Shown here: positions 1-22,088 of the stretch, piece by piece | Numbering within the stretch: the stretch's first letter is position 1 | How the letters are laid out: the number at the start of each line of letters is the position of its first letter | NCBI RefSeq assembly: GCF_001304615.2 | Contig: NZ_CP032683.1 | Coordinates: 1,116,001 to 1,180,000 of the forward strand | Length of the DNA stretch: 64,000 nt | Reading direction: 5' to 3' | Origin: Methanosarcina flavescens | GTDB lineage: Archaea; Halobacteriota; Methanosarcinia; Methanosarcinales; Methanosarcinaceae | Made by a program: the position numbers and the translations under genes | Notes under the pieces: generated by a model | The model's input: only the letters and a program-made list of their open reading frames with translations | Databases searched by the model: none | What the model was told of the DNA's origin: nothing

Positions 1-974
1 GGTCGCTGACAGGAGAAACCCCTGATATGTACATATCTGACCTGACAAGTGTAGATAACTCAGAAATAGTCACGCTGAATGAGGCTTTCAGGACAGAGCT
101 GCGTTCAAGGTACCTCAATTCCAAATGGATTTCAGGCATGATGGAGTTCGACTACCAAGGTGCCAGAGAGATGATGAAATTCACGGAATATATGTGGGGC
201 TGGGATGCGACTACCCCTGAGCTTGTTAAGGATTCAGACTGGAACCAGATATATGATGTATATGTAAATGACAGGTATGATCTTGGCCTGGACGAATACT
301 TCAAGGAAACCCCATACCAGTATCAGTCCATGACCGGAAGGATGCTCGAAACCTCAAGAAAAGGCTACTGGGATGCTTCTGATGAGGTCATCCAGAATCT
401 GGTTAAAGAATATGCTGAATCTGTAGTCGAAAGTGGGGTCACCTGTTGTCACCACACCTGTGGAAATGCCCTGCTTGACGAATATGTTCAGGGGGTAATG
501 TCAGTTCCGGGGGTTGTCGACCAGGCAACTGCAGATGAATATAAGAGATTGATGCAGGATGCAACAACTGCTCCGCAGCAACCCAGCGATAGTAGTAGCA
601 ATAGCAGCAATAGCAACAGTAGCAGCAGTAGCAGCAGTCATGGCAGTCACAGTATTGGGAAAGCTACTGTAGTTTCAAAAGATAGTACAGTCAACAAACA
701 GACAGCAAGTGCCAGGGAATCGACTCATAATCAGACAGTTAAGGATTCAGATGCAGGGTATGGTATGGATTCTCCTGAGCCTGCTCCTGAAGCCCGGCAG
801 ACTTCTCAGACATCTGATTCCAACTATGTTGAAGGTTATGAGATGCAGAAAAATCCTGTCGAAGAAAAAGAAAGTGGAGGTACTTCCTTCTCGGGAGCTG
901 ATATCATAGGAATTCTCTTCGTGGTAGCAGCAGTGGGAGGAATTTATATGGGATTCAGGAAAAAGAAGTTTTAA
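1..974 (+). CDS. CobN-like surface protein, 3' end only (gene begins before the window)
   Basis: The reading frame is open from position 3, so this is the C-terminal third of a giant CobN-like protein; the Met at 27 aligns with an internal residue of the complete copy at 4541 (after LTGETPEM) and is not the start. Visible parts are the end of the CobN fold, a CCHHTCGN motif near 442-465, a Ser/Asn-rich stalk encoded by an AGC/AGT microsatellite (about 583-640), a conserved GYGMDSPEPAPE...YVEGYEMQK segment, and a C-terminal membrane helix ending in FRKKKF. Predicted topology is extracellular with a basic cytoplasmic tail. Its last 270 bp are almost identical to those of the 4541 gene. Function is inferred: binding or remodelling of a tetrapyrrole or corrinoid. 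Confidence 0.85.
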   Translation, partial: SLTGETPDMYISDLTSVDNSEIVTLNEAFRTELRSRYLNSKWISGMMEFDYQGAREMMKFTEYMWGWDATTPELVKDSDWNQIYDVYVNDRYDLGLDEYFKETPYQYQSMTGRMLETSRKGYWDASDEVIQNLVKEYAESVVESGVTCCHHTCGNALLDEYVQGVMSVPGVVDQATADEYKRLMQDATTAPQQPSDSSSNSSNSNSSSSSSSHGSHSIGKATVVSKDSTVNKQTASARESTHNQTVKDSDAGYGMDSPEPAPEARQTSQTSDSNYVEGYEMQKNPVEEKESGGTSFSGADIIGILFVVAAVGGIYMGFRKKKF

Positions 975-983: not shown

Positions 984-1005
984 GAAAAGGGGTAAGCCCC
1001 TTTTC
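984..1005 (+). terminator. Hairpin behind the first CobN-like gene
   Basis: A perfect 9-bp inverted repeat (GAAAAGGGG / CCCCTTTTC, 4-nt loop) begins 10 nt after the stop codon. The same hairpin type follows the 17535 gene at 22099, and the flanking sequence (the TTTGAAAAAAGG-CTTTATTTTT type) is shared as well, so the 3' flanks of these two copies are related. Confidence 0.6.
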
Positions 1006-1371: not shown

Positions 1372-1430
1372 TCCTTCTAGAACTCATGAGCGAAGACTAA
1401 ACCTGGATTCATCTATAGGAAGATGATAAC

Positions 1431-3347
1431 TTGAAATGGAAGAGAATACTCGTATTAACTGTCGTTTTTGCACTGTTAATCCTGATCTCAAGCTCCGCAT
1501 CCGCAGCTACTCTTTATGTAAAGGAAGGAGGAGGTACAGGAGAATATGTAAACCTGCAGGAAGCCATAAATGCCGCTTCTGAAGGGGATGTTATCCTTGT
1601 CAAGGAAGGAAGATATAGTGAAAATGTACTTGTAAATAAATCACTGGATATAATCGCCAAAAACCCATGCCCTAATAAAACCGTCATCACTGCTCTGAAC
1701 CCCGAGCACCCTGTGTTCCATGTGATTTCTGATTCCGTAAATATCAGTGGATTTACTTTGAAAGGAACAAATTTGACACATGGAATTTATCTCGACGGTG
1801 TTTCAGAAAATAATATCCGTAACAACTATTTTTCAGGAAACTGGAGAAGTATCATGCTAAAAAATTCGCATGAGAATTCTCTGGAAAACAATTATTTATC
1901 TAACAGTGACGATGGAATCTGGCTTGAAAGTTCTGGACACAATTTAATAAAAGATAATAAGGCTAACTTTAATCGGCATTATGGTTTCTATCTGAACGCG
2001 TCCGAAAACAATACCCTTCAAAATAATTGCGCGTTTAAAGGAGCAATTGGCATCTACATAACAAATTCTTCTGGCTGTCGTGTTATTGACTCGGAAACAT
2101 CAAACAACTTTTATGGGATCTATCTTATAGGCTCTGGAGAAAGCCTGCTCGAAAACAACACCGCAAACTCAAATGAGATGTATGGTATATATTTAGGAAA
2201 CTCGAATGGAAGTACTCTGGAAGGAAATCTTGCAAATTCAAACAAATGGGGGATTTATCTCGACTCAAGCTTCTGTGTGCTTAAAAACAACACAATGCCT
2301 TGCAACAGCAGGAATTTCGGAGCCTACACCTATCACTATACTGGAGAGATGAATAATACAATCGATACCAGCAACACCGTGGATGGAAAATCGATATACT
2401 ATCTTGTAGGGGTTTCGAACCAGACTCTTGATTCGGGCTCAAATGCGGGAGTTATCTATTGCATTAATTGTGAAAATATTACTCTAAAAGACCTGGTCCT
2501 TGAAAATAGCAGTTTCGGAATTTACCTGTACAATACTCAAAACTCATTGCTTGAAGGAAACAATATTTCAAACAACGAACATGGGATTTACCTTGGAAAT
2601 TGTTCGGTAGTAACTCTCAGGGGCAATGAGGTCAATTCGAATGAAGGTGATGCCTTCATCTTAAGCAGCTGCAACAATTGCCTTGTAGTGGAGAACAATG
2701 CTTCGAACAATATGGCTGGTATATGGCTCTGTGATTCCAGCAAAAACAATGTCCTTAAAGAAAATACAGTTACTTCGAGTAGCTGGTGCTGCATAGACCT
2801 TGGGGACACAAGCTGTAACAATACTCTTGAAGGAAATGTTCTTTCCGGGGCGTATGAAGGAATCTACCTTTACGGAGCCAGTGAAGAAAACATTTTGAAC
2901 AACAACACTATCACAGCCAGTTCCTATGGATTATTTACAGAGGGCTGCGGCAACAATACTATCTCAGGGAATAGAATTTCAGAAAATGATGTTGGAATAT
3001 CTCTTAACTTGAACTGGAAAGATGAGACAAATTCGAATTACAACACCATCTACAACAATTATCTGAATAACAGCAAAAACGTCGAAGACTACGGAACAAA
3101 CACCTGGAACATTTTGAAAACCGAAGGTAGGAACATCGTTGGAGGACTTTACCTGGGTGGAAATTTCTGGGCTTCTCCGAAAGGAGATGGTTTTTCAGAG
3201 ACTGCTTCGGATGAAGATGGAGATATGATTGCAGACCTGCCGTACAATGTAACGGAAACGAACTATGACTATCTTCCCCTTGTGTTCGAGAAGCCGGTAG
3301 AAAAAACCGAAACTGCGGACGGAAATAAGTGTAATAAGACAGAGTAA
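1431..3347 (+). CDS. Secreted right-handed parallel beta-helix (NosD-like) protein
   Basis: The 638-residue product has a signal peptide (about residues 5-25, ending SSASA) followed by an opening typical of NosD/CASH domains (TLYV..GGTGEYVNLQEAINAASEGDVI). From about residue 85 to 520 there are many 22-24-residue coils with the pattern 'N.I..N....N..GIYL..S..N.L..N', i.e. PbH1 repeats. Such proteins bind carbohydrates or metal clusters or serve as surface scaffolds; the substrate here is unknown. There is no C-terminal membrane anchor. The start is TTG with AGGA about 9 nt upstream; the nearby ATGs at 1423 and 1436 are out of frame. The next gene follows after 26 nt in the same direction, so the two are probably cotranscribed. 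Confidence 0.85.
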   Translation: MKWKRILVLTVVFALLILISSSASAATLYVKEGGGTGEYVNLQEAINAASEGDVILVKEGRYSENVLVNKSLDIIAKNPCPNKTVITALNPEHPVFHVISDSVNISGFTLKGTNLTHGIYLDGVSENNIRNNYFSGNWRSIMLKNSHENSLENNYLSNSDDGIWLESSGHNLIKDNKANFNRHYGFYLNASENNTLQNNCAFKGAIGIYITNSSGCRVIDSETSNNFYGIYLIGSGESLLENNTANSNEMYGIYLGNSNGSTLEGNLANSNKWGIYLDSSFCVLKNNTMPCNSRNFGAYTYHYTGEMNNTIDTSNTVDGKSIYYLVGVSNQTLDSGSNAGVIYCINCENITLKDLVLENSSFGIYLYNTQNSLLEGNNISNNEHGIYLGNCSVVTLRGNEVNSNEGDAFILSSCNNCLVVENNASNNMAGIWLCDSSKNNVLKENTVTSSSWCCIDLGDTSCNNTLEGNVLSGAYEGIYLYGASEENILNNNTITASSYGLFTEGCGNNTISGNRISENDVGISLNLNWKDETNSNYNTIYNNYLNNSKNVEDYGTNTWNILKTEGRNIVGGLYLGGNFWASPKGDGFSETASDEDGDMIADLPYNVTETNYDYLPLVFEKPVEKTETADGNKCNKTE

Positions 3348-3373
3348 GCCTGGAGAAGAAAGGAGAGAAAAAT

Positions 3374-3928
3374 ATGTACGGAAAAAGTTTGAATTTATTT
3401 GTTCTGTTAATCCTGGGCATAGTTATTTCACAATTAGTCTTTTCGATGCCAGTAGGAGCTTGTTGCGGGCAGGAAAATAAGAGTGTGGGAACAGTAATAA
3501 TCGCTACTGTTGAAGGAGATTCTCACACTTTTGGGAAGGATAGCATTGCGTCTGCACTTGAGGAGGAAGGTTTTGAAGTAATTAATCTTGGGAATGGTAT
3601 TTCGGCTGAAAGTTTAGCTGCAAACGCAAAAGAAAAGAAAGCCGATTTTGTATTCAGTTCCGCCTCCATGAGTACTACCATGGTCCACCAGATCCAGATT
3701 GAAGAGCAACTCAAAGCTGCTGGTATCAGGGATAAAGTTATAACAGGTGTAGGAGGATCGCTGGTAACTCAGGCCTGGGCTGACCAGATAGGAGCTGACA
3801 TTTATACTGCAGGCTCTGCAGACGCGGTGTCCAAAGCAAAATCGTCTCTACTGAAAAGTAACAATAATGTTCTAAAAAATCATATTAAAGTCAATGAAAG
3901 TACCAGTTGCAAAAGCTATCAAAGATAA
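3374..3928 (+). CDS. Exported corrinoid (B12)-binding Rossmann-domain protein, probable lipoprotein
   Basis: Of 184 residues, the first about 29 form a signal peptide with a lipobox-like VGAC ending at Cys30. Residues 38-165 align by eye with the cobalamin-binding half of MtaC encoded at 50552: TVEGDSHTFGKD matches AEGDVHDIGKN, so Asp49, His51 and Gly54 restore the DxHxxG motif whose His is the lower cobalt ligand. GFEVINLG, SASMSTTM and TGVGGSLV match the remaining cofactor-contact segments. MtaC's N-terminal helical cap domain is absent. Corrinoid proteins of this family normally work in the cytoplasm; an exported one is unusual. It may bind extracellular cobamides and cooperate with the neighbouring surface CobN-like proteins (inference). 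A GAAAGGAG ribosome site precedes the ATG. Confidence 0.8.
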   Translation: MYGKSLNLFVLLILGIVISQLVFSMPVGACCGQENKSVGTVIIATVEGDSHTFGKDSIASALEEEGFEVINLGNGISAESLAANAKEKKADFVFSSASMSTTMVHQIQIEEQLKAAGIRDKVITGVGGSLVTQAWADQIGADIYTAGSADAVSKAKSSLLKSNNNVLKNHIKVNESTSCKSYQR

Positions 3929-3955
3929 ATTCCTGTTTTAAATCCCTATTTGAAA

Positions 3956-3984
3956 TGCGGCGCAATTAAATCGCCGTATTTTTT
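3956..3984 (+). terminator. Rho-independent-type terminator after the exported corrinoid protein
   Basis: Stem TGCGGCG 3956-3962 / CGCCGTA 3972-3978 (one G-U pair) followed by six T. The stretch from TTTTAAATCCCTATTTGAAA onward is also found immediately after the stop of the 4541 CobN gene, including the TTTTAA that contains that gene's stop codon, so this flank probably derives from a lost CobN copy. Confidence 0.65.
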
Positions 3985-4109
3985 CATTTTATCTGAATCT
4001 GAATCTATTTTTTCATAAACTCTGCATATTTTTAGTTTTTTTTAATTAAGGCCTATTTACTGTTTTAATTTCGTAAATATGCTCTAAAATTCTCTTATTA
4101 CCTTGAAAG

Positions 4110-4200
4110 CTAATAATTGTGAGCCAAAAACCTCTATTTATGTATTTTCTTCCCTAATGCTCCAACGTTGAATATTCCAAAACAGAATCGGCTGCTCATT
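4110..4200 (+). promoter_or_regulatory. Conserved CobN upstream element, copy A
   Basis: It starts with a near-palindrome (GCTAATAATTGTGAGC, 4109-4124) followed by CCAAAAACC, a TATA-like TTTATGTATTTT and TTCCCTAATGCT, then CAGAATCGGCTGCTCATT. The same order of blocks occurs at 11854 and 12380. The distance to the relic start codon at 4395 is 285 nt, identical to the spacing of copy C before the 12666 gene, so this element originally drove a CobN gene starting at the relic. Confidence 0.65.
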
Positions 4201-4394
4201 TTTTTAAAAGGTTCTGGAGTGAATTAAAGTCAGAACCGAAAGCTTCCACTCGATCTTTTAAAATTTGAAGGCTGTTTCTGTGCAAGTTCCGACATTAGAA
4301 TAATTTCAAATCAACCTTGTATTGTGGAGTGACATTCTGGTTTTTTTTCACCAGGTGGTCAGGATTCATAATACATTGGTGGGATAAGATACGT

Positions 4395-4532: not shown

Positions 4533-4540
4533 GGGATAAT

Positions 4541-7500
4541 ATGCATAAAAAAGCTTACTTGTTGTTCTTAGGTGCATTACTTTTCCTGATGTTTATACCA
4601 GGTGTACTGGCAGACGAAAATAAGATAAACATAACTTATATTGCATATTCTCCAAGTGATGCTCTGGAGTTAGCCAGCAAGACAAATCAATATAGCAAAT
4701 CCATAGAGTACACCTATATCCCTGCATATAATTCCACCACAAATGGGGCAAGCGACGAGCTGCTTGCAGCAGGGAAGAGTGGATTCCTCAAGACACAGGA
4801 TGTAGTCTTCTGCCAGATGCTCGGTAAATCTGTATATGAACCAATGGATGAAAGTTTCAAAGCGGCTTCCGACAATGGGGCTTCACTTCTGGCAATTCAA
4901 TCCGCAGATACCCCTTCTTATTTTGCTTATGATTCTAATGGTTCTGTTAGCGATTCCATAAGCAACTATTACAATAACATGGGCACTGAAGGAAACGGGC
5001 TCAAGAATGCGGAAGATCTATTGATCTATCTTGCAACAGAATACGGAGGGCTCTCGGAGACCAGTGCGGATTCAAATAACACTAATGAAAGCTCAGGCAA
5101 TGAGTCTTCTCTGGAGAATACCACTGATTCAACCACTGGTTCTACTACTGATTCAACCACTGGTTCTACTACTAATTCTACTACTGATTCAACCAATGAT
5201 TCAACCAATGACTCTAATCGCACAAATATGAACCTGGGCAATGAGTTCCTATTTATTCTCGGTTCGGAAGTCAATGAGCCTGCACTTAGAAATGCTGCAT
5301 CAAATTCCGACATTTCATCTGAATTGAATGTAACTATTTTCTCAATGAACGATGCCGTTCCGGAAGGTTTTGATTTCTCTAAATATTCAATGGTCTTTAT
5401 CGAATCGCAGGATGAATCTGCAGTAAATGCCTGGGCAACGGGCATAAATTCTACCAAAGAAAGCGGCTCCATGGTTATAGGTTACAACCTTTCGTCTAAC
5501 ATTACCTTCCCTAACGTTGACCTGTATTCTGATAACTACACTGACATCGAAAGATACTGGGTGCAGGGCGGCGAAACAAATATGGAGAACATGCTTAAAT
5601 TAATGGGGCAGAAGTTCTCAGGTGTTTGGGAAGGAGAAACTATTGCACAACCAGAAATCCTGCGGCTTAAAACCAATATAACGTACATCACGAATTCACA
5701 TACCAACATCTTTTATCTAAATAATGTCCTTTCGGAGAGAAGCATTATCACTGATTTGTTTAATGTCAATGTGATTTACGGCATGGGCGGCAAAGAAATA
5801 GCTGCAAACCTATCCAGTCTTCCCCAGCAGGATGTTATCATACTGTACATGATCGGCTACAACGATCTGCCGGAGTTCAAGGATTTACTTCTCAGTGCCA
5901 GGGCAAATGGAACCCAGATAGGACTTGTTGCGACCAGCGATGTTTATGGATTAGCCACAGTAAACATGGATGATCTGCCATACAGTCCGATCAAGAGTTA
6001 CATCTACAGAGATGGTTATATCAATATGGAGAATTTTGTCCGCTCGATTGGAGCAGTATTCAAAAACATATACATAGAGCATTCCCCTGCTGTAGCTCCT
6101 TCGATTCCTAACCATGGGATCTACCATCCGGATGCTTTCCCAAGGATTTTTGAAAACAGCACCGGATATCTCGAATGGTATGCAGATAATGGTTATAATG
6201 CCTCTGCACCCACAATAGGCTTAATCATAACTCATAATATTCCAAAAGAACGTATCTCCCTCTCTGCAGAGGATGCCATAATAAGGAACCTTGAGTCCAA
6301 AGGTTACAATGTAATCTGTTCGACTTATAAGGTCGCTGCAGAAGATGTGGATTATTTCACCAATAATGGGACAGTGCTTGTCGATTGTATAATTTCCTTA
6401 AAAGGCTTCACGCTGAATTATGAAGACCAGGAAAAGGGCGTGGAATACCTGAAGAAGTACAATGTTCCGGTACTTAAAGCAGTTGAAGATGCATCCCAAT
6501 CACCAGACCAGTTCAATGAAAGTGAACGCGGCCTGGGACTCATCATGGCCCCATCTTCAGTGATCCAGCCTGAGATTGATGGATGTACAGATTATATCTG
6601 GGTGGCTGGATACGTTCAGGATCCTGAAACACAACAGTACTATTATTCACCACATCTGGACCAGGTGGACTGGCTGTGCAACAGGGCCATTGCCTGGGCG
6701 GAGCTTGGAAGGACCAATAACGCCGACAAGAAGGTCAGTATTCTGTACTGGAATCATGAAGGAGGCAAAAACGACATCGGGGCCAGCTACCTTGATATCG
6801 GGTCAAGTTTCACGCTACTACTTGAACAGATGCGTGCAGAGGGCTATTATGTAGGAAATGAGACTATCCCCAATGGCAGTGAGTTCATGGACCTGTTCAT
6901 CGAAAGCAGGAACGTTGGCGCATGGTCACCTGGAGAACTAGAGAAAGTTGTAAATTCAGGAAATGTTACTCTCTTGCCGGTGAATGAGTATCTTGAGTGG
7001 TATAATACCCTGCCTGAAAGTGTGCGCACGGGTATTGAAGGAACATGGGGAGAAGCACCCGGCAATATCATGATTAATGAGAACGAAAGTGGAAAATACT
7101 TCGTTATCCCAACGGTGCAGCTTGGGAATGTCAATTTCATTCCACAGCCATCCAAAGCTGGACTTTCCGACGATTCTCTGATATACCATAACACTTCGAT
7201 CCCACCCACACACCAGTACCTTGCAACATATTTCTGGATAAACAAAGTGTATGATGCCGATGCAATTATCCACTTCGGTACACACGGATCTCAGGAATGG
7301 TTAGCAGGAAAGGAACTTGGCATTTCCAGATATGACTACCCGGCGCTGATGGTAGATGACACTCCTGTTATCTATCCATACATAATGGATAACGTGGGAG
7401 AGGGCACTCAGGCCAAACGTCGCGGTAATGCGGTGATCATAGACCACCTTACACCGCCTATAGTAACGGCTGGAATTTATGGCGACCTTGCCACAATGGA

Positions 7501-9850
7501 TGAAAAAATTAACAACTACCAGACATCTGTAAGTGAAAATGACACTGCTATGATGGCATTCTATCGCAACAGTACCATAGAGCTTTACACAAATCTTTCA
7601 ATGGAAAATGACCTTGGAGTAACTCCAGATGAACTCAGAACGATGTCAGAAGACGAGTTTGGAGGTTTCGTAAGTAATACTGTCCATGATTATCTGGATC
7701 AACTAAAGTCTACATTGATGCCCTATGGAGTTCATACCCTTGGTGTTGCGCCAGAAAATGAAAAATTGGTGTGGATGGTCAAATCACTGCTTCGCAGCCA
7801 TTTTGTAGACCATATCTATAATATCATGCCAAAGAACAGCAGTATTGAGGAAGACTGGGAAAGTGTGGCTGATGCCCTTGCAATGGATCTTCTGAATGCC
7901 ACCTTGCTCAACGAAACAAACGTGTCCACTGCCCAGCTTGAGGTTCTTAGCCTGACAAATGATACCATTGCAGAGGATCTTAATCTGGGCATGGAGTATG
8001 CTGACAAACTGAACCAGTCAACACTTGAGATTAACCAGACACTGCGTGCACTTGATGCAGAGTATATCGAGCCAGGTCCAGGCAACGATCCTATACGTAA
8101 TCCGGAAGCACTACCAACCGGCAGGAACTTCTATAGTTTTGATCAAAGAAAGTTCCCTGATGAGGAAACCACCGCAATGGGTACAATACTCGCAGACCAG
8201 CTGGTAAAGGATTATTACGACAGCCATAATGGCACATATCCGGAAAAAGTTTCGTATACCCTCTGGGCCATGGAAACAATGCGCCATCATGGACTTATGG
8301 AAGCCCAGATCTATGCCTTGCTTGGTGTAAGTCCTGTAAGAAACAATGGAGTGCTCACCGGGTTTACTGTAATTCCACTTGAAGAAATGAACCATCCAAG
8401 GATTGATGTGCTCATCCAGTCTTCCGGAATGTACAGGGATACTTTCCCATATCAACTTGAACTGATCGACACCGCACTCCGAACAGTTGCAGAACTGAAT
8501 GAAACCAACGAGACTAACTATGTAAGATGGAATTCTCTGAAGATGGAGGATGAACTTCTTGCAAGCGGTTACAATAACACCACTGCAGAATACCTCTCAA
8601 GGTGCAGGATATTCAGTGAGGCAATAGGAGATTATGGAAACGGGATGCCCGATGCAATAGCTGCAAGTGATACGTGGGAAAATGAAACAAAACTTGCTGA
8701 TCTGTTCATCTCAAAGACATCCTATGTATATGGGCAGGACCTCAGCGGAAATGGTCTCTGGGGTGAGAATCATGAAGACCTGCTTACAATGAACCTTCTG
8801 GATATAGATGCAGCTATACACAGTGACTCTACAAACCTGTTTGGTATCATTGATGGAGATGACTATTACGGCTATCTTGGAGGCATCGGGCTTACAGTAA
8901 GGGCATTAACAGGAGAAACTCCTGAAATGTACATAGCCAGTCTGGAAAATGTGGATAATCTACAGATCATCTCATTGAAAGAGGCTTTGAGGACAGAGCT
9001 GCGTGCACGTTACTACAATCCAAAATGGATAAACGGAATGATGGAAGCTGACTATGCAGGTGCCCGTCAGATGATGAAATTTACAGAATATATCTGGGGA
9101 TGGGATGTTACGAACCCGGATCTGGTTACTGATTCTGACTGGAATGAGATCTATGACATCTACGTCAACGACAAATATGATCTTGGTCTTGACGAGTTCC
9201 TGAAAACGGATAACCCATACCAGTATCAGGCTATGACTGCCAGGATGCTCGAAACCTCAAGAAAAGGATACTGGGATGCTTCTGACGAGGTCATCCAGAA
9301 TCTGGTTAAAGAATATGCGGAGTCTGTGGTTAAAGATGGCGTTACATGCTGTCACCACACCTGTGGAAATGCCCTGCTTGATGAATATGTCCAGGGGGTA
9401 ATGTCCGTTCCTGATGTTGTTAACCAGGCAACTGCAGACGAATATAAGAGATTGATGCAGGAAGCAACGACTGCCCCACAGCAACCCAGCGAGAGCAGTA
9501 GTAGCAGTAGTAGTCACAGAAGCCACAGTACTGGAAGTGCTACTGTGGTTTCAAAAGATAGTGCCCCCAGAAATCAGACTTCAAGTGCCAGGGAATCGAC
9601 TCATAATCAGACAGTTAAGGATTCGGATGCAGGGTATGGTATGGATTCTCCTGAGCCTGCTCCTGAAGCCCGGCAGACTTCTCAGACATCTGATTCCAAC
9701 TATGTTGAAGGCTATGAGATGCAGAAAAGTCCTGTTGAAGAAAAAGAAAGTGGAGGTACTTCCTTCTCTGGGGCTGATATCATAGGAATTCTCTTCGTGG
9801 TAGCAGCAGTGGGTGGAATTTATATGGGATTCAGGAAAAAGAAGTTTTAA
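4541..9850 (+). CDS. Giant surface CobN-like protein with triplicated N-terminal domain
   Basis: The product has 1769 residues: signal peptide 1-24; three N-terminal modules at about 25-165, 235-365 and 378-510, each ending in an 'N-M-x-N' helix block; a Thr/Ser/Asn-rich linker at about 170-229 between the first two; then the CobN/ChlH core. Core signatures are HFGTHGSQEWLAGKE near 910 and GEGTQAKRRGNAVIIDHLTPP near 952-972. CCHHTCGN lies at about 1603-1610, followed by a Ser-rich stalk, a conserved YVEGYEMQK patch and a C-terminal membrane helix with FRKKKF. CobN normally inserts cobalt into hydrogenobyrinate in the cytoplasm with ATP-driven CobS/CobT. Export makes that reaction unlikely here; binding, demetallation or metal exchange of tetrapyrroles outside the cell, as proposed for bacterial HmuS-type CobN relatives, is a better guess. 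Confidence 0.88.
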   Translation: MHKKAYLLFLGALLFLMFIPGVLADENKINITYIAYSPSDALELASKTNQYSKSIEYTYIPAYNSTTNGASDELLAAGKSGFLKTQDVVFCQMLGKSVYEPMDESFKAASDNGASLLAIQSADTPSYFAYDSNGSVSDSISNYYNNMGTEGNGLKNAEDLLIYLATEYGGLSETSADSNNTNESSGNESSLENTTDSTTGSTTDSTTGSTTNSTTDSTNDSTNDSNRTNMNLGNEFLFILGSEVNEPALRNAASNSDISSELNVTIFSMNDAVPEGFDFSKYSMVFIESQDESAVNAWATGINSTKESGSMVIGYNLSSNITFPNVDLYSDNYTDIERYWVQGGETNMENMLKLMGQKFSGVWEGETIAQPEILRLKTNITYITNSHTNIFYLNNVLSERSIITDLFNVNVIYGMGGKEIAANLSSLPQQDVIILYMIGYNDLPEFKDLLLSARANGTQIGLVATSDVYGLATVNMDDLPYSPIKSYIYRDGYINMENFVRSIGAVFKNIYIEHSPAVAPSIPNHGIYHPDAFPRIFENSTGYLEWYADNGYNASAPTIGLIITHNIPKERISLSAEDAIIRNLESKGYNVICSTYKVAAEDVDYFTNNGTVLVDCIISLKGFTLNYEDQEKGVEYLKKYNVPVLKAVEDASQSPDQFNESERGLGLIMAPSSVIQPEIDGCTDYIWVAGYVQDPETQQYYYSPHLDQVDWLCNRAIAWAELGRTNNADKKVSILYWNHEGGKNDIGASYLDIGSSFTLLLEQMRAEGYYVGNETIPNGSEFMDLFIESRNVGAWSPGELEKVVNSGNVTLLPVNEYLEWYNTLPESVRTGIEGTWGEAPGNIMINENESGKYFVIPTVQLGNVNFIPQPSKAGLSDDSLIYHNTSIPPTHQYLATYFWINKVYDADAIIHFGTHGSQEWLAGKELGISRYDYPALMVDDTPVIYPYIMDNVGEGTQAKRRGNAVIIDHLTPPIVTAGIYGDLATMDEKINNYQTSVSENDTAMMAFYRNSTIELYTNLSMENDLGVTPDELRTMSEDEFGGFVSNTVHDYLDQLKSTLMPYGVHTLGVAPENEKLVWMVKSLLRSHFVDHIYNIMPKNSSIEEDWESVADALAMDLLNATLLNETNVSTAQLEVLSLTNDTIAEDLNLGMEYADKLNQSTLEINQTLRALDAEYIEPGPGNDPIRNPEALPTGRNFYSFDQRKFPDEETTAMGTILADQLVKDYYDSHNGTYPEKVSYTLWAMETMRHHGLMEAQIYALLGVSPVRNNGVLTGFTVIPLEEMNHPRIDVLIQSSGMYRDTFPYQLELIDTALRTVAELNETNETNYVRWNSLKMEDELLASGYNNTTAEYLSRCRIFSEAIGDYGNGMPDAIAASDTWENETKLADLFISKTSYVYGQDLSGNGLWGENHEDLLTMNLLDIDAAIHSDSTNLFGIIDGDDYYGYLGGIGLTVRALTGETPEMYIASLENVDNLQIISLKEALRTELRARYYNPKWINGMMEADYAGARQMMKFTEYIWGWDVTNPDLVTDSDWNEIYDIYVNDKYDLGLDEFLKTDNPYQYQAMTARMLETSRKGYWDASDEVIQNLVKEYAESVVKDGVTCCHHTCGNALLDEYVQGVMSVPDVVNQATADEYKRLMQEATTAPQQPSESSSSSSSHRSHSTGSATVVSKDSAPRNQTSSARESTHNQTVKDSDAGYGMDSPEPAPEARQTSQTSDSNYVEGYEMQKSPVEEKESGGTSFSGADIIGILFVVAAVGGIYMGFRKKKF
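5120..5215 (+). repeat. Tandem Thr/Ser-coding repeat in the CobN linker
   Basis: Imperfect units around GATTCAACCACTGGTTCTAC repeat through this stretch and encode D-S-T-T/N-G-S-T-T-type residues that form a flexible, potentially O-glycosylated linker between the first and second N-terminal modules. Units are multiples of 3 bp, so slippage would alter linker length without a frameshift. Confidence 0.75.
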
Positions 9851-12474: not shown

Positions 12475-12665
12475 CAGGATGTTCTAGATTTTTGTTGCAT
12501 GTTATATCGAGAGCTTCCAACTCCACTTTTGATATTTAGTAGCTGTTTATGTGTAAATATCTAAAATTCACAATCTTTTAAAATAAAATCGTTCTGTGTA
12601 CCGGGCATTCTGGTTATTTTTCTCCCGGGTGCCCAAGGTTTCATTATGCAATGTTTGGGGATAAA

Positions 12666-15600
12666 ATGCGTACGGCACAAAGCAGATTATTGGTTTTATG
12701 TGCAGTGGTACTTTTACTGCTAGCACAGAATGTAGCGGCTGGTGAAAATCAGGTAAATCTTACTTTTATCTGTTATGATGGAAGTGCTCTTGCTGCGGCA
12801 GAGGAGTCCAATCCATACAATGTGAGTATAAATGTAACGTACATCTCAGGTTATTCCAATTTTTCTAATATTGATCTGGGAAACCCTGACGTAATATTTA
12901 CCTACATGCTCTGGAATCAGTTCGAGTATATAGGTGACGGCCTTGAAAGGGCCCATGAAAAAGGAGCTGCACTCATAGACATTACCTCTATGATGGACCC
13001 GACATATATCAACGCTTCAACTTATGATAAGATCTTTGCCGGGACTAAACCATACAATTCTACTGAAGAGAAATTCTTTTACAATATGGGTTCAAGAGGA
13101 GTCCTGAAGAAAAACGCTGAAAACTTCCTTATCTATCTAGCAAAAACTTATGGAGATAAACCTGAGCTTACGGATAGCTGGATTTATCAGGACCCAATAG
13201 ATTTCCCTGAAGCCGGACTCTACCATCCGGATGCACGCTCTTCTACAAATGAATCTCAGCCCGACTGGTTTGAAAACACAACTGATTACCTTGAATGGTA
13301 CTCTAACTCGGCTAACTTAACTAACTCAAACGAATCAAGACATATTTATGATAAGAGCAAGCCAACTATTGGAATATGGTTCCACGCTTCCGATTATACG
13401 GGTGATAACCTTGAAGTCATAGATGCGCTCATCCGTGACCTGGAAGGAAAGGGCTGCAATGTAGTTGCAGGTTTTGAGACCTTCAATGATATCCACAAGT
13501 TTTACTTTGATGAGAACGGAGAGCCTCTCGTTCAGTGTGTAATTTCTCTTAAGAGTTTCCGCTTGAATTACGAAGATCCTGATAAAGGTGTACAGGAGCT
13601 AGAAGACCTTGATGTTCCTGTTCTCACGGGATTGGTTGTTACAAACCCCTCTAATTCTATTGATGTGGCTGACAGCAACAGGGGTATTCCTAGCAGCGAA
13701 ATTGTATACAAGACCCTGCTTCCAAGCATTGACGGGATTTTCGAGTACATTGTGATAGGATTTGATAATTACGATACCGAAACCGGTGAAAGCAACTACG
13801 AACCTCTGCCCTCTCAGATTGACTGGATGTCAAACAGGTCAATTAACTGGGCAGAACTAAAGTTAAAAGAAAATCAAGACAAGAAAGTAGCTGTCATCTA
13901 TTACAACTACCCTTCGGGAAAAGACAATATAGCGGCAAATTACCTCAACACCACCCAGAGCATGTTTGATCTTCTCAAAGCAATGAATGAAAGCGGGTAT
14001 GAGGTCTCCGGAATTCCGGATAACAGCAGCGAACTCCTGGAGATGCTTCAGGCGCAGGGTATCAATGTCGGTTCCTGGGCTCCGGGGGCCCTGAATAAAA
14101 TGGTAGAAAATAGGGCTGAATGGGGACTGCACCTCATACCCATGGAGACTTACAGAGGATGGTTTGAGTCTGAAATTCCGGAAAACCTGAGGGCCAATGT
14201 AACTGCTGAATGGGGAGAACCCTGGTCTGAAGACCTGCCTCAAGACAAGAGTGTCATGATCTATGAGAACGAGACCGGAAAATACATTGTAATTCCCACA
14301 GTGCGTTTCGGGAATGTCTGGCTCATGCCTCAGCCTGCCAGGGGTACAGGGCAAAACAATGATACTCTTTACCATAGCAGTGTTGTGCCTCCCACACATC
14401 AGTACATAGCTTTTTATCTCTGGCTGAACCACGATTGGCAGCCAGATGCAGTTATTCACATGGGCACCCACGGTACGCATGAGTGGCTTCCTGGTTCAAC
14501 TTACGGTATGAACCGGACTTCAGAGTGGTCTCCACTGCTGCTTCAGGACATTCCGAATATCTACCCTTATATTGTTGCTAATGTTGGAGAAGGGATAACT
14601 GCGGAGTATAGGGGAAATGCCCTTATTATCGACCACCTTACTCCGACTCTTGAACGCAGTGGGCTTTATGGAGGCTTACTGAACCTCTCAATTGGTGTCC
14701 AGCAGTACTACGACCCTAGCATTACTTCCCAGACCAGGGCAGGATATAGGCAAGCCATAATAAACGAGATCACAGCGCTCAACCTCAGTGTCGATCTGGG
14801 AATTGAAAACGTAACCTCTCTCCAGGATTACAGTGAAGAAGAATTTGAGACTTTCATCAAAAATGTCCTTCATGAATATCTTGAAGATGTAGGGAATGAA
14901 AATATCCCATACGGAATGCATATCCTCAGCCGTGTTCCCGGAACGAATATGACAGACCCTGAGAAAGACGAGCTCTCTGCAATGGTAAGGGCTATGCTTG
15001 GAGGAAGTTTTGAGAAGAATGTTACTGCTGCCTTTTACTCTGAATCTGCTTATCCTCTTGGAATTCCATTAAACGATACAAAAGTTACAAGACTTGTCTG
15101 GGAGGTTGTAACGAATAATACCAATGTTTCCAGTGCACAGCTTGCAGTTTATGGAAAAACCAATAGCACAGTTACACTTGATCTTGAACAGGGGCTGGAT
15201 TATAGGAACCGGCTTCTTGACTGCGATGTAGAAATTGACAGGATTCTTTCAGCCCTGAATGGAGGATTTGTACCACCGGCTTCTGGGCTTGATCCCATAA
15301 TGAATCCTGATGCCGTACCGACAGGCCGAAACTATTACAGTGTAAACTCAAAGCTCTATCCTTCGGAGGCGACCTGGGAAATTGGAAAATCCCTTGCAAT
15401 CCAGTTACTTGAGGACTATTATAGTGAGCACGGGGAATACCCTGAAAAGGTTTCATTCTCAAGGTTCGGTGTTGAATTTATCGGCGACCACGGGACCCTG
15501 GAAGCCGAAATTCTTTACCTGCTTGGGATCCAGCCCGTATGGGACGAATACGGGTATGTGACAGGAGTCGAAGTTATTCCCGAAGAAGAACTGCTGCCGA

Positions 15601-17012
15601 ATTACGACAGCTCAAAGCCAGGGAGGCCGCGTATTGATATTGTCTATAGTACGGCAGGGATAAGGGATGCTTTCCCGGATAAGATCAAAATGGTGGACAG
15701 CGCTGTAAAACTTGCAAGCTCTCTCCCCCCCGTAAACTATCCCAACTACGTCAACCAGAGTTCACTTGCACTCTACGGTTCCCTTGTTGAGACAGGATAT
15801 GACAACGATACTGCAACAAAACTCTCAACAATGCGCTGCTTTGCGGTAATGGACGGCACCTACGATATAGGGGTCTCGGACGCTGTCAGTGCAAGCGGGA
15901 CATGGGAAAACGAAGAAGCCATTGCAAACGTATACCTGGACAAGATGGGATACGCCTACGGAGAGGATTTCTGGGGAATACAGTCCAGAGGCCTCCTTGA
16001 AGGGAACCTGAAAAATGTTGAAGCATCGGTACATTCAGCCTCTTCAAACCTTTACGATTCTCTTGACAACGACGACTTTTTCCAGTATTTCGGAGGCATG
16101 AACCTTGCAACAAGGTATGTAAAAGGTGACGGGACAACTCCTGAAATGTATGTTTCTGATACAAGCAACCCCGACGGGGCTCAGATGCTTGGAATGCGGG
16201 AATACCTCAGCAAGGACCTGAGAGCCAGATATTTCAATGACAGGTGGATTGAAGGCATGCAGAACTCAGGGTATTCAGGCGGCAGTATGATGTCCGAATT
16301 TGTGGACAACCTCTTTGGCTGGGAAGTAAGTTCCCCTGAGCTTGTGGATGACACTGTCTGGCAGCAGGTGTATGAGACCTACTCCAATGACCCTGCCATG
16401 AGAGAATGGTTCAAACAGAATAACCCGGCCGCTTACCAGTCAATCACTGCCAGGATGCTTGAAGCTGTCAGGCACGATTACTGGGCACCTTCGGAAGACG
16501 TTATTGAAAGCCTTGCAACGGAATATGAACAGTCTGTGGCTGAGAACGGGGCTTCATGCTGCCACCATACCTGCGGAAACCCCCTGCTTCACGAGTTCGT
16601 AAGCGGGATGGTATCTGTTCCTGGCTATGCTGAGCAGATCGAATCAGCGACCAGAGTCGAGACCAAGGAAATAACAGAATCTCAGAGCAGCAGTAGCAGT
16701 AAAGGGCATCAGACAAGTGTTGCTGAAAAACTTAACCAGACATCCAGATCAGGTTCGGAATCACAGGAAAGCAACCAGACTGTTCAGGACTCCGGCACAG
16801 GCTATGGAATGGATTCTCCAGAACCTGCTCCTGAAGTCCGCCAGAATTCGGAATCCGATTACGTGGAAGGCTATGAGATGCAGAAAGAAACTCCTGTAAC
16901 GGAAGAAGAAAGTGGAGGTCCGTCTTTCTCCGGCTCTGACATATTCGGAATTCTTTTCGTCCTGGCAGCAGTTGGAGGAATTTATCTGGGATTCCGTAAA
17001 AAGAAGGTTTAA
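12666..17012 (+). CDS. Surface CobN-like protein, diverged core
   Basis: I start this at the ATG with TTTGGGGAT upstream, not at the ATG 15 nt earlier, because the relic at 4395 aligns from here. The protein of about 1448 residues has a signal peptide (1-25, VVLLLLAQNVAA), one N-terminal module, the CobN core and the usual CCHHTCGN (about 1298-1305), Ser-rich stalk, YVEGYEMQK patch and anchor (FRKKKV). The core has changed at otherwise conserved places: PGKE is PGST, and the AKRR following GEG is AEYR. These basic residues are probably substrate or fold contacts in CobN, so this copy may bind a different ligand or lack activity. Promoter copy C lies 285 nt upstream. Confidence 0.88.
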   Translation: MRTAQSRLLVLCAVVLLLLAQNVAAGENQVNLTFICYDGSALAAAEESNPYNVSINVTYISGYSNFSNIDLGNPDVIFTYMLWNQFEYIGDGLERAHEKGAALIDITSMMDPTYINASTYDKIFAGTKPYNSTEEKFFYNMGSRGVLKKNAENFLIYLAKTYGDKPELTDSWIYQDPIDFPEAGLYHPDARSSTNESQPDWFENTTDYLEWYSNSANLTNSNESRHIYDKSKPTIGIWFHASDYTGDNLEVIDALIRDLEGKGCNVVAGFETFNDIHKFYFDENGEPLVQCVISLKSFRLNYEDPDKGVQELEDLDVPVLTGLVVTNPSNSIDVADSNRGIPSSEIVYKTLLPSIDGIFEYIVIGFDNYDTETGESNYEPLPSQIDWMSNRSINWAELKLKENQDKKVAVIYYNYPSGKDNIAANYLNTTQSMFDLLKAMNESGYEVSGIPDNSSELLEMLQAQGINVGSWAPGALNKMVENRAEWGLHLIPMETYRGWFESEIPENLRANVTAEWGEPWSEDLPQDKSVMIYENETGKYIVIPTVRFGNVWLMPQPARGTGQNNDTLYHSSVVPPTHQYIAFYLWLNHDWQPDAVIHMGTHGTHEWLPGSTYGMNRTSEWSPLLLQDIPNIYPYIVANVGEGITAEYRGNALIIDHLTPTLERSGLYGGLLNLSIGVQQYYDPSITSQTRAGYRQAIINEITALNLSVDLGIENVTSLQDYSEEEFETFIKNVLHEYLEDVGNENIPYGMHILSRVPGTNMTDPEKDELSAMVRAMLGGSFEKNVTAAFYSESAYPLGIPLNDTKVTRLVWEVVTNNTNVSSAQLAVYGKTNSTVTLDLEQGLDYRNRLLDCDVEIDRILSALNGGFVPPASGLDPIMNPDAVPTGRNYYSVNSKLYPSEATWEIGKSLAIQLLEDYYSEHGEYPEKVSFSRFGVEFIGDHGTLEAEILYLLGIQPVWDEYGYVTGVEVIPEEELLPNYDSSKPGRPRIDIVYSTAGIRDAFPDKIKMVDSAVKLASSLPPVNYPNYVNQSSLALYGSLVETGYDNDTATKLSTMRCFAVMDGTYDIGVSDAVSASGTWENEEAIANVYLDKMGYAYGEDFWGIQSRGLLEGNLKNVEASVHSASSNLYDSLDNDDFFQYFGGMNLATRYVKGDGTTPEMYVSDTSNPDGAQMLGMREYLSKDLRARYFNDRWIEGMQNSGYSGGSMMSEFVDNLFGWEVSSPELVDDTVWQQVYETYSNDPAMREWFKQNNPAAYQSITARMLEAVRHDYWAPSEDVIESLATEYEQSVAENGASCCHHTCGNPLLHEFVSGMVSVPGYAEQIESATRVETKEITESQSSSSSKGHQTSVAEKLNQTSRSGSESQESNQTVQDSGTGYGMDSPEPAPEVRQNSESDYVEGYEMQKETPVTEEESGGPSFSGSDIFGILFVLAAVGGIYLGFRKKKV

Positions 17013-17196: not shown

Positions 17197-17534
17197 AATA
17201 ATCGCAGGTTTTTATGCAAATAAAGTAAAATTGCGTTCAAATTATCCGGTATTATTTATGTTTTGAGGTGAGGTACTGATATTTTATTGGGCTATATCTA
17301 TCAAAAACAGCTTTTGACAACCAATATTTGAGTGATGTTTTTCCCTGAATGACAGGTAAAGTTTACTTTTGTTATTTCTTTGCTGTGTAGTCCGGGTTTT
17401 CTACCAGAATGTACTGGTATCTCTGGCGGCGATATCCTGTAAATAAAATTATAAAGTATTTTGCAGGCATCCGAACAATTCCGCGATAAGTGGCTCTCAC
17501 AGCAATAAGCTTAATCATATTCTGGAGCAGGATT

Positions 17535-20500
17535 ATGAAAGAACAGGTTAATGTTGATAAAAATTCTTTTAACAAAAAAATTAAGGCTTCCGGATTGACA
17601 ATTTTAATCCTTTTAATGCTATTTTCTTCTTCTCCGGCGGCGGGCAGTACAGGCACGGAATACGAACTTGTTGCTAACACTACAAGTGACGCTGAGGGAA
17701 ACTATCTGCTTTCCGGTATTCCCAATGGAAACTATACTCTTGTTGCTATTTCCAGTGAGGACAAATGGCGTCGTGCCGATGAACAGATCCAGGTTCAGGG
17801 GGCAGATCTTTCTGTAAACCTCGATACTTCAAGCAGGGATATTGATGAAACCGAATCCCAGGCAATTCTTGACCTGAAGGGCAGTGGAGTTCCCCTGGAA
17901 GGAGCCTCTTCAATCCGCGGGCTCACCCGACAAAAACAGATGGGAGGAGACCCTATTTCTCTGGGGTTCACAGAAGTTCTTCTGCTGAGAGAGCAGGTAA
18001 AGGAAACTCCTGTAGACTCAAGCCCCGGTCAGCAACTTGATATTGCTATTGTTACCGGGTACCGGAGCCATGAACTTCCCCTCAAAAACCTGATGGAGGA
18101 GATCAACGGCAACAGCAGCCTGAACCTTTCCCTTAGCTGTTTTATGGCTGATTATGTTATGGAAAACGATGTTGACCTGAGCGGTATGGATATCATCTAC
18201 ATCAACATGCTCAGCCCTTCAACTGCCCGGAAGCTTACACCCACAGTAGACAGCGCAATTTCTAACGGGTGTGTGGTTATCGACGACGATACCCTGCTGA
18301 ACGAGAGCATCCCTCTTCCTGCAGACCTGATAGAGAGCTACAGGGAAAAACTCAACAATTACTGGCTCAACGGGGCTTACGACCAGAGTAACCTGAAAAA
18401 TCTTTTATTCTGCATAGCCAGTGACTGCTGCGGCAGAACTGACCTCCTGTACGAGGACCCACACACACTTCCTGAAAGGGCTATCTACCATACAAACATG
18501 ACAGGTTACTTCACCGATTCCCTTGATACATACCTCACCTGGTACTCTAACAGGAGTGACGGAGGACATGTTTACGATCCGGCAAAGCCCACGGTTGCTA
18601 TTACCATGTACCAGAGTTATTTCCCCTTCCAGATTGAGCCCATTGACGCTCTGATTTCGGAACTGGAAGCCAGAGAATACAATGTTATTGCTACTTACGG
18701 GTCTGATAACCTTTCCTCGGGAGATTTCTTCAAGCAGGGTGACGAGGTACTTGTAGACGCTATCATCTCTTTTACGTACTTTGGAAACAAGTTTGATGCC
18801 GAGGGGCTTGATGTGCCTGTAATCAACGGCATAGTTAACAATTACATGAACAGGACCGGGTATGAAGCTAGCAGCAGGCCGCTTCCCGCGGATAAAATGA
18901 TGAAACTCGATTTGCAGGAACTTTGGGGAGCTATTGACCCGGTAATAATGGCTGCCACTGAAATAGATCCCGAAACCGGGACCGAGACTTCGGTTTCTAT
19001 AGACTACCAGGTAGACTGGCTCATTGACCGGGTTGAAAGCTGGGTAAACCTTGGGGAAATTCCTGACTCCGACAAGAAAGTTGCTATCATTTATTATAAC
19101 CACGGAGGAGGAAAGGACAACATAGGGGCTTCTTACCTCGATGTCGTCCCAAGTTTGTCAAGCCTGCTTGATGCTATGGCTGCCGGAGGATATGCCATTA
19201 ATGAAAACCAGTCCCTGAATGAAACCGAGCTACTTAATCTGATGCTTACCCAGGGCATCAATATAGGTACCTGGGCTCCCGGAGAACTCGAGAAGATGGT
19301 TGCTACAGGCAAGGTAGTTCTCGTCCCTGAAAGCACATATGAAGTATGGTTCTCTGAACTTCCTGAAGAGAAACAGCAGGAGGTTATTGAACAGTGGGGC
19401 CCTGCTCCTGGAGAGATCATGGTCTGGGAAAACGAGAGTGGAAGATATCTTGTAATCCCCAGAATTGAGGTAGGGGATAACGTGCTTCTGGCTCCTCAGC
19501 CTTCGAGAGGCTGGCTTGATGACAGTGAAGCCCTTTATCACGATTCTGAACTTCCTCCTCACCACCAGTACATTGCGTTCTATCTCTGGCTCCAGCACTC
19601 CGAAGAAGAAGGCGGATTTGGTAGTGATGCCCTTGTGCATTTCGGCAGGCACGGGACTCAGGAATGGCTTCCCGGAAAAGAGTTCGGGCTTTCGAGATAT
19701 GACTGGCCTTCCCTGATGATCGGGGACTTACCTGTTATTTATCCTTACGTTATGGACGGGCTTGGGGAAGGAAATGAGGCAAAACGCAGAGGAGGAGCAG
19801 TAATAGTCGACCATCTTGTCCCTCCGATTGTTTCTGCGGGAAGCTATGGGGATTATGCAAACCTGAGCGAAGCTATCCACAACTATGGGCAGGCAGAGGC
19901 AGATGCTTCCCTTAAAGCTGCTCACAGGTCTGAAGTTTTAAACCTAACCTTATCCCTCTCCCTGGATGAAGAATTCAATATGACAGAGGCGGAAAATAAC
20001 GAGACTTACTTTAATGCCGTTTTCCTTGAAGGGCTTGAAGAGCTGCTGGATGAATACAAGGGCCAATCAATGCCTTACGGGCTGCATATCCTGGGTACAA
20101 GCCCGAAAGGGGAACAGCTTGTGGGTATGGTGAATTCCATGCTAGGGACTGACTTTGCCGATTCTGTTAGTGAATTCAATGAAACCGAAGGTTCCCAGCT
20201 CTATCTGCTTGATCTTGTCCTTAACCAGGGAGTCAATTCCACGGAGGCTCAGGTGCAGGTCCTCGGGACAGGCAATGAGACTGTCAGTACCTTCCTCGTC
20301 AGTGCAGAAGAATACGCTGCAAACCTGGCTCTCGGGGAAGAGGAAATCCAGCAGGTCCTAAATGCCCTTGAAGGCAGGTTCATCCCCGGAAACCAGGGAG
20401 GAGACCCTGTTAGAAACCCTGAAGCACTGCCTTCGGGGAGAAACTTTTATGCTTTTGACCAGAGGATAGTTCCGACGGAAGCCGCCTGGACTCTCGGGCA

Positions 20501-22088
20501 GGAGATGGCTGACCAGATGCTTGAAGCATATCTCGCCGAGCACGGGAATTACCCGAGAAAAGTGGCTTATGTCCTATGGGCAGGAGAGACTACCAGGCAT
20601 GAAGGGGTTATGGAAGCAGAGATCCTCTCTCTACTCGGGGTAAAGCCTGTATGGAACAGCGGCAGGGTGGTTGATGTGGAAGCTATCCCTATGGAGACTC
20701 TGGGGAGACCCAGGATTGATGTGGTAATCCAGATCTCCGGGCTTTACAGGGATATGTATCCTGACAAGGTGCGCCTGCTGGATAAAGCTGTAAAACTTGC
20801 TTATGCCCAGGAGGATTCCCCTAACTATATCCGGGAAAATGCTGATGCTCTGAAGACCTCTTTGATGAGTGAGGGTTCCCTTAATGAAAGTGAGGCACTG
20901 GACCTTTCCTTGCTCAGGATTTTCGGGTCTGAGGACGGCGCCTACGGCACAGGGCTTCCGAACGCTGTTTCAGCAAGTGATACCTGGGAGAGCAATGATG
21001 CTCTTGCAGATCTTTACATCAACAGGATGTGCAATGCTTACGGAGAAAACGTCTGGGGCGAAAACCTTAAGGACCTTTTCAAAAAGAACCTTGAAGGGGT
21101 TGAAGCCACAGTTCACAGCCGGAGCACAAACCTTTACGGGACCCTTGACAACGATGACTTTTTCCAGTATCTGGGAGGGCTGAATCTTGCTGTCAGTTCC
21201 GTTTCCGGAGGGGAGTATCCTGATTCATTTATTACGAATATGCTGGCCGGAGGGGATGAGAAAACCGAAACCCTGGAAGAATTCCTCAAAAGGGAAACTT
21301 ATTCCCGATATTTCAATCCCAGATGGATTGACGGCATGCAGGGAAACGGCTATGCAGGAGCAAGGGAAATGTCGGATTTCGTTGAAAACCTCTGGGGCTG
21401 GGAAGCCACAAACCCGGATTTGATCAGCGATGATATGTGGAATAAGGTATACCAGACCTATATGGCAGACCAGGAACTCAGCGACTGGGTAAAGCAGAAC
21501 AACCCCTACGCATACCAGTCCATGACTGCCCGGATGCTGGAGACCGCCCGCAAGGGGAGCTGGGATGCATCGGATGATGTCCTCAAAAGCCTGGCTGAGG
21601 AATATGCAGAGTCCGTGGTTGAAGACGGGGTTACCTGCTGCCACCACACCTGTGGGAATTCTCTCCTCAACAACTACGTATCGGGCCTTGTATCAGTACC
21701 CGGTTTTGTCGAAGCGATTGAAGAGGCTACGCAGGAATCTCTTAAGCAGGAAAGGACTGAAGAGCATAGGAGCAGCAATGGGCACCAGACGAGTGTTGCC
21801 GAAAAACTTAACCAGACTGCCAAATCAAACACCGAAGAACCGGTCAGCAACCAGACCGTTCAGAATTCTGATGCAGGATATGGTGTGGATTCCCCTGAAC
21901 CTGCCCCTGAGGTCAGACAATCTGCAGATCCTGACTACGTGGAAGGTTATGAGATGCAGAAAGAAGAATCGTCTGAAGGAGCGGAAAGTGGTGGTATGTC
22001 CTTCTCAGGAGCTGATATCATTGGAACTCTCTTTGTGGTAGCAGTGGTGGGTGGAATTTATCTGGGATTCCGGAAAAAGAAAATGTAA
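17535..22088 (+). CDS. Surface CobN-like protein with N-terminal carboxypeptidase-regulatory-like domain
   Basis: Start chosen at 17535 (GGAGCAGG upstream); an ATG 45 nt earlier is in frame. About 1517 residues: membrane signal at about 13-33 ending SPAAGS, then a short beta-sandwich fragment with the CarboxypepD_reg pattern (SDAEGNYLLSGIPNGNYTLVA), not present in the other copies. Core motifs are the most CobN-like of the array: HFGRHGTQEWLPGKEFGLS from about 702, GEGNEAKRRGGAVIVDHL near 744-761. CCHHTCGN is at about 1368-1375, then stalk, YVEGYEMQK, and anchor ending FRKKKM. No CobS/CobT/ChlI/ChlD gene is near. Anchored outside the membrane, it probably binds or processes tetrapyrroles or corrinoids without ATP (inference). 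Confidence 0.88.
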   Translation: MKEQVNVDKNSFNKKIKASGLTILILLMLFSSSPAAGSTGTEYELVANTTSDAEGNYLLSGIPNGNYTLVAISSEDKWRRADEQIQVQGADLSVNLDTSSRDIDETESQAILDLKGSGVPLEGASSIRGLTRQKQMGGDPISLGFTEVLLLREQVKETPVDSSPGQQLDIAIVTGYRSHELPLKNLMEEINGNSSLNLSLSCFMADYVMENDVDLSGMDIIYINMLSPSTARKLTPTVDSAISNGCVVIDDDTLLNESIPLPADLIESYREKLNNYWLNGAYDQSNLKNLLFCIASDCCGRTDLLYEDPHTLPERAIYHTNMTGYFTDSLDTYLTWYSNRSDGGHVYDPAKPTVAITMYQSYFPFQIEPIDALISELEAREYNVIATYGSDNLSSGDFFKQGDEVLVDAIISFTYFGNKFDAEGLDVPVINGIVNNYMNRTGYEASSRPLPADKMMKLDLQELWGAIDPVIMAATEIDPETGTETSVSIDYQVDWLIDRVESWVNLGEIPDSDKKVAIIYYNHGGGKDNIGASYLDVVPSLSSLLDAMAAGGYAINENQSLNETELLNLMLTQGINIGTWAPGELEKMVATGKVVLVPESTYEVWFSELPEEKQQEVIEQWGPAPGEIMVWENESGRYLVIPRIEVGDNVLLAPQPSRGWLDDSEALYHDSELPPHHQYIAFYLWLQHSEEEGGFGSDALVHFGRHGTQEWLPGKEFGLSRYDWPSLMIGDLPVIYPYVMDGLGEGNEAKRRGGAVIVDHLVPPIVSAGSYGDYANLSEAIHNYGQAEADASLKAAHRSEVLNLTLSLSLDEEFNMTEAENNETYFNAVFLEGLEELLDEYKGQSMPYGLHILGTSPKGEQLVGMVNSMLGTDFADSVSEFNETEGSQLYLLDLVLNQGVNSTEAQVQVLGTGNETVSTFLVSAEEYAANLALGEEEIQQVLNALEGRFIPGNQGGDPVRNPEALPSGRNFYAFDQRIVPTEAAWTLGQEMADQMLEAYLAEHGNYPRKVAYVLWAGETTRHEGVMEAEILSLLGVKPVWNSGRVVDVEAIPMETLGRPRIDVVIQISGLYRDMYPDKVRLLDKAVKLAYAQEDSPNYIRENADALKTSLMSEGSLNESEALDLSLLRIFGSEDGAYGTGLPNAVSASDTWESNDALADLYINRMCNAYGENVWGENLKDLFKKNLEGVEATVHSRSTNLYGTLDNDDFFQYLGGLNLAVSSVSGGEYPDSFITNMLAGGDEKTETLEEFLKRETYSRYFNPRWIDGMQGNGYAGAREMSDFVENLWGWEATNPDLISDDMWNKVYQTYMADQELSDWVKQNNPYAYQSMTARMLETARKGSWDASDDVLKSLAEEYAESVVEDGVTCCHHTCGNSLLNNYVSGLVSVPGFVEAIEEATQESLKQERTEEHRSSNGHQTSVAEKLNQTAKSNTEEPVSNQTVQNSDAGYGVDSPEPAPEVRQSADPDYVEGYEMQKEESSEGAESGGMSFSGADIIGTLFVVAVVGGIYLGFRKKKM

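Follow-up and report, generated by a model that had tools for sequence, protein, structure and literature searches.

What might a corrinoid-binding domain do on the outside of a methanogen? To our knowledge, the familiar corrinoid domains with a DxHxxG motif work in the cytoplasm, and our search of the literature found no exported one. We address this question at a locus within a 64,000-nucleotide stretch of DNA (the window) from a one-contig, 3.28-Mb Methanosarcina genome, where a gene encodes a protein, here called EXP, with a hydrophobic leader, a short linker carrying an N-glycosylation sequon, a lone B12-binding Rossmann domain and a 24-residue tail. A first-pass annotation of the sequence had described it as an exported, MtaC-like lipoprotein that may scavenge cobamides. 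Our own reading, which we hold tentatively and regard as nearly as likely to be right as wrong, is that EXP is an exported stand-alone cobamide-binding protein that works with a NosD-like partner and serves tetrapyrrole or cobalt salvage at the cell surface. The gene and its parts are listed here, with loci outside the window given by our handles (L numbers).

3374..3928, + strand: EXP, protein with a corrinoid-binding domain, derived from MttC, and an export signal; 184 aa, ATG start
3359..3365, + strand: ribosome-binding site AAAGGAG, assigned by sequence; within the 26 bp that separate EXP from the NosD stop, and kept in orthologues
3374..3460, + strand: predicted signal peptide, residues 1-29, from hydropathy; VGA/CC is a probable SPase I-type end, followed by Cys30; the orthologue end is of the VSA/G type
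3485..3853, + strand: B12-binding Rossmann domain, residues 38-160, from Pfam PF02310, the AlphaFold2 model and superposition on MttC 7xcn_M
3518..3535, + strand: DSHTFG, the DxHxxG motif (D49, H51, G54); all 11 members keep D49 and H51, and L049 and L050 have V at the place of G54
3659..3667, + strand: SAS (S96-A-S98) where SxL is classical; Ser at 98 in all 11 exported proteins, Leu in 24/24 cytosolic relatives
3752..3757, + strand: GG pair (G127-G128) belonging to the B12 signature; the next two residues are S-L and not A-P, from alignment with cytosolic relatives
3854..3925, + strand: C-terminal tail, low-confidence in the model, ending SCKSYQR; the homologous tail ends in CxxCH in five cytochrome-c-competent species

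Start, leader and corrinoid domain

The annotated start of EXP is right, since ten orthologues keep its ATG, its hydrophobic leader and a ribosome site of the AAAGGAG type, and M25, the only internal Met near the start, is not conserved; this rules out a wrongly assigned start codon, the error that the first-pass annotation had itself flagged as fatal to its signal peptide. The leader combines a positive N-terminus, a hydrophobic core (residues 8-23) and a small-residue cleavage site, the features of Sec export, which are conserved in the orthologues as judged from hydropathy and alignment. A 15-residue segment from residue 8 has a mean Kyte-Doolittle hydropathy of 2.9, with the rest of the protein at or below 1.1 and similar values in the orthologues, so the export signal noted earlier was upheld, and we infer that EXP is really exported. 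The lipobox did not survive comparison: Cys30 is present in two of the 11 exported proteins (the window copy and L047), and L051, L055 and L056 read VSAG in the cleavage region, with no Cys there, which makes ordinary cleavage or an uncleaved anchor likelier than lipidation and leaves EXP as a lipoprotein unsupported, its lipobox Cys not being conserved. All exported members have N-glycosylation sequons in the linker or tail, and these are missing from most MttCs. The linker of one orthologue (L056:9340-9960) is enlarged by repeats rich in N-x-S sequons, six of them ahead of the domain, which is consistent with a glycosylated surface protein.

The domain matches PF02310 (B12-binding) at 9e-24 over residues 40-150, with 84.1 bits against a curated cut-off of 32.1, and residues 41-160 of the AlphaFold2 model have pLDDT above 93; the best structural matches of this model in the PDB are the MttC chains of 7xcn, with an rmsd of 0.8 Å over 124 columns for 7xcn_M. 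Set against the reference signature DxHxxG-x41-SxL-x26-28-GG, EXP has an intact DxHxxG (D49-S-H51-T-F-G54), as first described, and canonical spacing, with 41 residues to S96-A-S98 and 28 more to G127-G128. D49, H51, G127 and G128 are invariant in the exported proteins and their cytosolic relatives, but SxL reads SxS in 11 of 11 members and GGAP has become GGSL in all of them. In total, eleven positions are fixed otherwise than in cytosolic relatives, several of them beside cofactor motifs (S98, S100, G125, S129, L130). The SxS, the GGSL and the Val for Gly in the DxHxxG of L049 and L050, two sister species, suggest that corrinoid affinity may be altered. The helical cap is missing, as the first reading had it: roughly 85-92 residues precede the domain in MttC homologues, where EXP has its signal peptide and linker. 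A corrinoid in the capless EXP would be more exposed than in MttC, which holds it with the cap.

Descent, distribution and selection

The nearest relative of EXP is MttC, with about 56% identity in the same genome, whereas the window's MtaC has 31%, and a PDB sequence search with EXP returned MttC at 2.8e-37 and MtaC at 5e-13. EXP scores 117.2 bits with TIGR02370, below the family cut-off of 215.3 and over profile positions 79-197 only. The 11 exported proteins form one clade (support 100/100) attached near MttC, within which the tree contains three groups with no settled root among them. Tree and scores both place EXP with MttC and rule out the MtaC parentage of the earlier description. EXP resembles MttC (PDB 7xcn; TIGR02370) in its Rossmann corrinoid domain, DxHxxG and GG, but differs in having no cap, a signal peptide, SxS and GGSL for SxL and GGAP, and a NosD-like gene alongside; MtaC (PDB 2i2x) has fold and motif in common with EXP at about 25-31% identity and is not the parent branch. 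Descent from MttC, with loss of the cap inside Methanosarcina, is well supported by these sequence comparisons.

The search for signal-peptide-bearing relatives that had been recommended yielded ten orthologues among 30 other Methanosarcina species, so that EXP is present in 11 of 31. A profile of the family gave 328-363 bits for true members and 165 for the best MttC, with nothing between in the order and phylum samples. Neither this profile, run on 120 genomes sampled from the order and 393 from the phylum, nor a GDSHT[FY] DNA pattern, run on 238 from the class, picked up a member beyond Methanosarcina. Median dN/dS is 0.125 for the domain and 0.26 for the leader. The corrinoid domain is under purifying selection, and its value rules out that the window copy is a pseudogene. 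Motif retention and this selection argue for a bound ligand, and EXP probably binds a corrinoid. A decayed NosD/EXP pair lies around 9700-10700 of L057 (genome G006): NosD is truncated, and the exported gene has lost its start and, by a deletion that stays in frame, most of its corrinoid domain. In L047 (1-679, same contig as L039), which comes from a metagenome-assembled genome, the reading frame of the exported gene shifts close to its 3' end, through decay or perhaps a fault of the assembly.

Neighbouring genes

1431..3347, + strand: NosD-like protein, parallel beta-helix, exported (signal peptide); start codon TTG; Pfam NosD 4e-72
3..974, + strand: CobN-like protein 1, C-terminal part; whole gene at L058:4738-9975
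4541..9850, + strand: CobN/HmuS-like protein 2, exported, with signal peptide, C-terminal membrane anchor and HFGTHG motif; PF02514 1106 bits, best PDB sequence match the HmuS heme dechelatase 9d26
12651..17012, + strand: CobN-like protein 3, exported; leader and C-terminal anchor
17490..22088, + strand: CobN-like protein 4, exported; leader and C-terminal anchor

The NosD-like gene is directly upstream of EXP in all 11 loci, across at least three chromosomal settings (26 bp away in the window), and the 11 of 31 genomes that have EXP are precisely those with an orthologue of this gene. The two genes are probably co-transcribed. This invariant partner was absent from the first-pass annotation. 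The protein has about ten invariant Cys, several of them about 23 residues apart, a spacing that would correspond to rungs of the beta-helix. NosD, which is encoded in nitrous oxide reductase loci, is a periplasmic protein with a beta-helix, and the partner of EXP is like it in its beta-helix repeats, but scores 146.7 bits against the cut-off of 300 for the NCBIfam NosD subfamily, and no nos genes were recognised in the EXP neighbourhoods.

In this genome, EXP has an exported CobN-like gene on either side, and CobN1 is itself preceded by DUF2162, MotA/ExbB and DUF2149 genes. A whole CobN-like gene also adjoins the locus in L047 and L048, and an N-terminal fragment of one does so in L049, L050, L052 and L053 (a broken CobN4-like gene is found downstream in L052 as well); none is adjacent in L051, L054, L055 or L056. 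The proximity to CobN-like surface proteins that first drew attention to EXP therefore holds for this genome and for only part of the orthologous loci. Genome-wide, CobN-like genes are present in 11 of 11 genomes with EXP versus 13 of 20 without it. Genes of the cbiM/Q/O type flank the EXP operon in L048, L049, L050 and L053, with CbiM and CbiQ confirmed by Pfam and CbiO called by ABC-ATPase similarity and position; here, no cbiM is adjacent to EXP, and the three copies of this genome are elsewhere. No Rfam RNA element matched near the operon (window 1-13000). BtuS/CobN-like proteins of M. barkeri respond to iron and sulfur source (PMC10846266). The neighbourhood of chelatases and cobalt transporters argues for tetrapyrrole and cobalt handling, and a beta-helix gene that always adjoins, with chelatase-like genes that often do, points to extracellular handling of B12 or cobalt.

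Proposed role and its alternatives

We suggest that, within Methanosarcina, a copy of MttC shed the helical cap at its N-terminus and acquired a signal peptide, and that its product most likely binds a corrinoid on the outer side of the membrane, base-off/His-on, by way of Asp49-His51. EXP would act with the Cys-rich beta-helix protein of the gene immediately upstream, and would hold a cobamide (or its cobalt) or pass it to a surface tetrapyrrole-handling apparatus: membrane-anchored HmuS/CobN-like chelatases with ExbB-like, DUF2149 and DUF2162 partners, joined in some species by CbiMQO cobalt uptake. MttC descent, the retained motif, cap loss, the hydrophobic leader, purifying selection and the NosD pairing are supported directly at the level of sequence; actual export, corrinoid binding, a hand-over to the chelatase and its net direction, be it cobamide salvage or cobalt extraction, are inferred. 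The cobamide scavenger first proposed, once freed of its lipoprotein part, is plausible and compatible with the cobalt and chelatase neighbourhood of some species.

The tail of EXP brings in a different possibility. It ends in CxxCH in L051, L054, L055, L056 and the remnant L057, and all five of these genomes have Ccm genes; the other seven with the gene lack both Ccm and the motif (12 genomes including the remnant), so the CxxCH genomes are exactly the Ccm-bearing ones. An exported protein, CxxCH and Ccm, which together would mark a mono-heme cytochrome c, are thus found in five species including the G006 remnant, and the window copy, with no CxxCH, falls outside this class. The CxxCH orthologues may carry covalent heme c. 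Ccm has been inferred in the Methanosarcina ancestor, with loss in M. barkeri-type lineages (PMC9084895), and the out-of-frame tail of L047 still carries the His; a heme-bearing ancestor whose heme site decayed upon Ccm loss fits these patterns, and gain in half of the genus is equally parsimonious. EXP could then be an extracellular redox protein, an electron-transfer or reductive (for example dehalogenating or Co(III)-reducing) surface module with heme c beside the corrinoid in species with c-type cytochromes, and the window copy would be derived from such a protein and lack the heme; we consider this unlikely. In a species tree built from one gene, the link between CxxCH and Ccm amounts to about one contrast between the halves of the genus and not to independent repeats, the tail is low-confidence and outside the folded domain, and the table of c-type cytochromes of M. 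acetivorans (PMC6703419) has no gene at the position that we deduce for EXP; we found no literature on this orthologue under its presumed locus tags. A surface polypeptide bearing both a corrinoid, held His-on in its Rossmann domain, and covalent heme c in the Ccm species, acting with the Cys-rich beta-helix partner and HmuS-like chelatases, seems improbable to us as well.

The fixed changes in SxL and GGAP, the V in the DxHxxG of one lineage and an exported form without a cap would also suit a domain that no longer binds corrinoid, with EXP a structural partner of the beta-helix protein in adhesion or assembly; this is rather improbable, as D49, H51, the GG and the motif spacing are invariant and selection on the domain is strong. 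Storage or sequestration of cobamide or cobalt at the surface, as a buffer or by capture of shared cobamides, would involve no delivery to a chelatase and would suit a protein that is small and soluble-looking outside its leader and that has CobN-like genes adjacent only in some loci, but in other species CobN-like and cobalt-transport genes are found at the EXP locus, and we think this decidedly improbable. Least credible, and very improbable, is a role as exported partner of a methyltransferase, in which EXP would carry on the outer side of the membrane the methyl groups that MttC carries in the cell: MttC descent and the retained QIQIEEQL helix, common to MttC, speak for it, yet EXP lacks the cap by which methyl-Co is shielded, and no cognate methyltransferase gene, such as an exported MttB- or MtbA-like one, was recognised around the 11 EXP genes (from a comparison of neighbours with the genes of the window and from selected Pfam scans, with part of the neighbours annotated).

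The salvage role that we favour has counterparts in the extracellular cobamide capture of BtuF and of Bacteroides BtuG, BtuH and BtuJ, which have other folds without the DxHxxG site. BtuF and BtuG differ in fold from the B12-binding Rossmann domain, and EXP, which has that domain and not a periplasmic-binding-protein fold, is distinct from BtuF, as had been proposed. BtuJ is a beta-jelly-roll (PMC12751083). Nearer to the neighbours of EXP is the hmu operon of Bacteroidota (HmuS), which resembles the set of CobN-like, MotA/ExbB, DUF2149 and DUF2162 genes. We take the last three families to correspond gene by gene to HmuT/U/V. In the available part of the HmuS paper (PMC12583661), HmuS is a membrane-anchored dechelatase, the role of its archaeal homologues is stated as unclear and their substrate is left open, and Hmu systems have the hemophore HmuY and a TonB-dependent receptor with no mention of a B12-binding domain. 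A genus-specific, selected and exported corrinoid domain offers a handle on the substrates of the many exported CobN/HmuS homologues of methanogens: it suggests cobamides as a substrate, and a possible cobalt or B12 salvage route for cobalt-hungry methylotrophic methanogens.

Four exported CobN-like genes with the same C-terminal anchor are found on one stretch of this genome (window 3-22088 plus L058:4738-9975). CobN1 and CobN2 have 83% DNA identity over their last 970 bases, which suggests duplication or conversion. A 71-aa open reading frame between EXP and CobN2 contains a relic CobN-like N-terminus (window 4389-4529), of which 33 aa match the beginning of CobN3 at 79% identity, and a DUF1638 gene downstream of CobN2 (window 10134-10928) is possibly part of the same theme.
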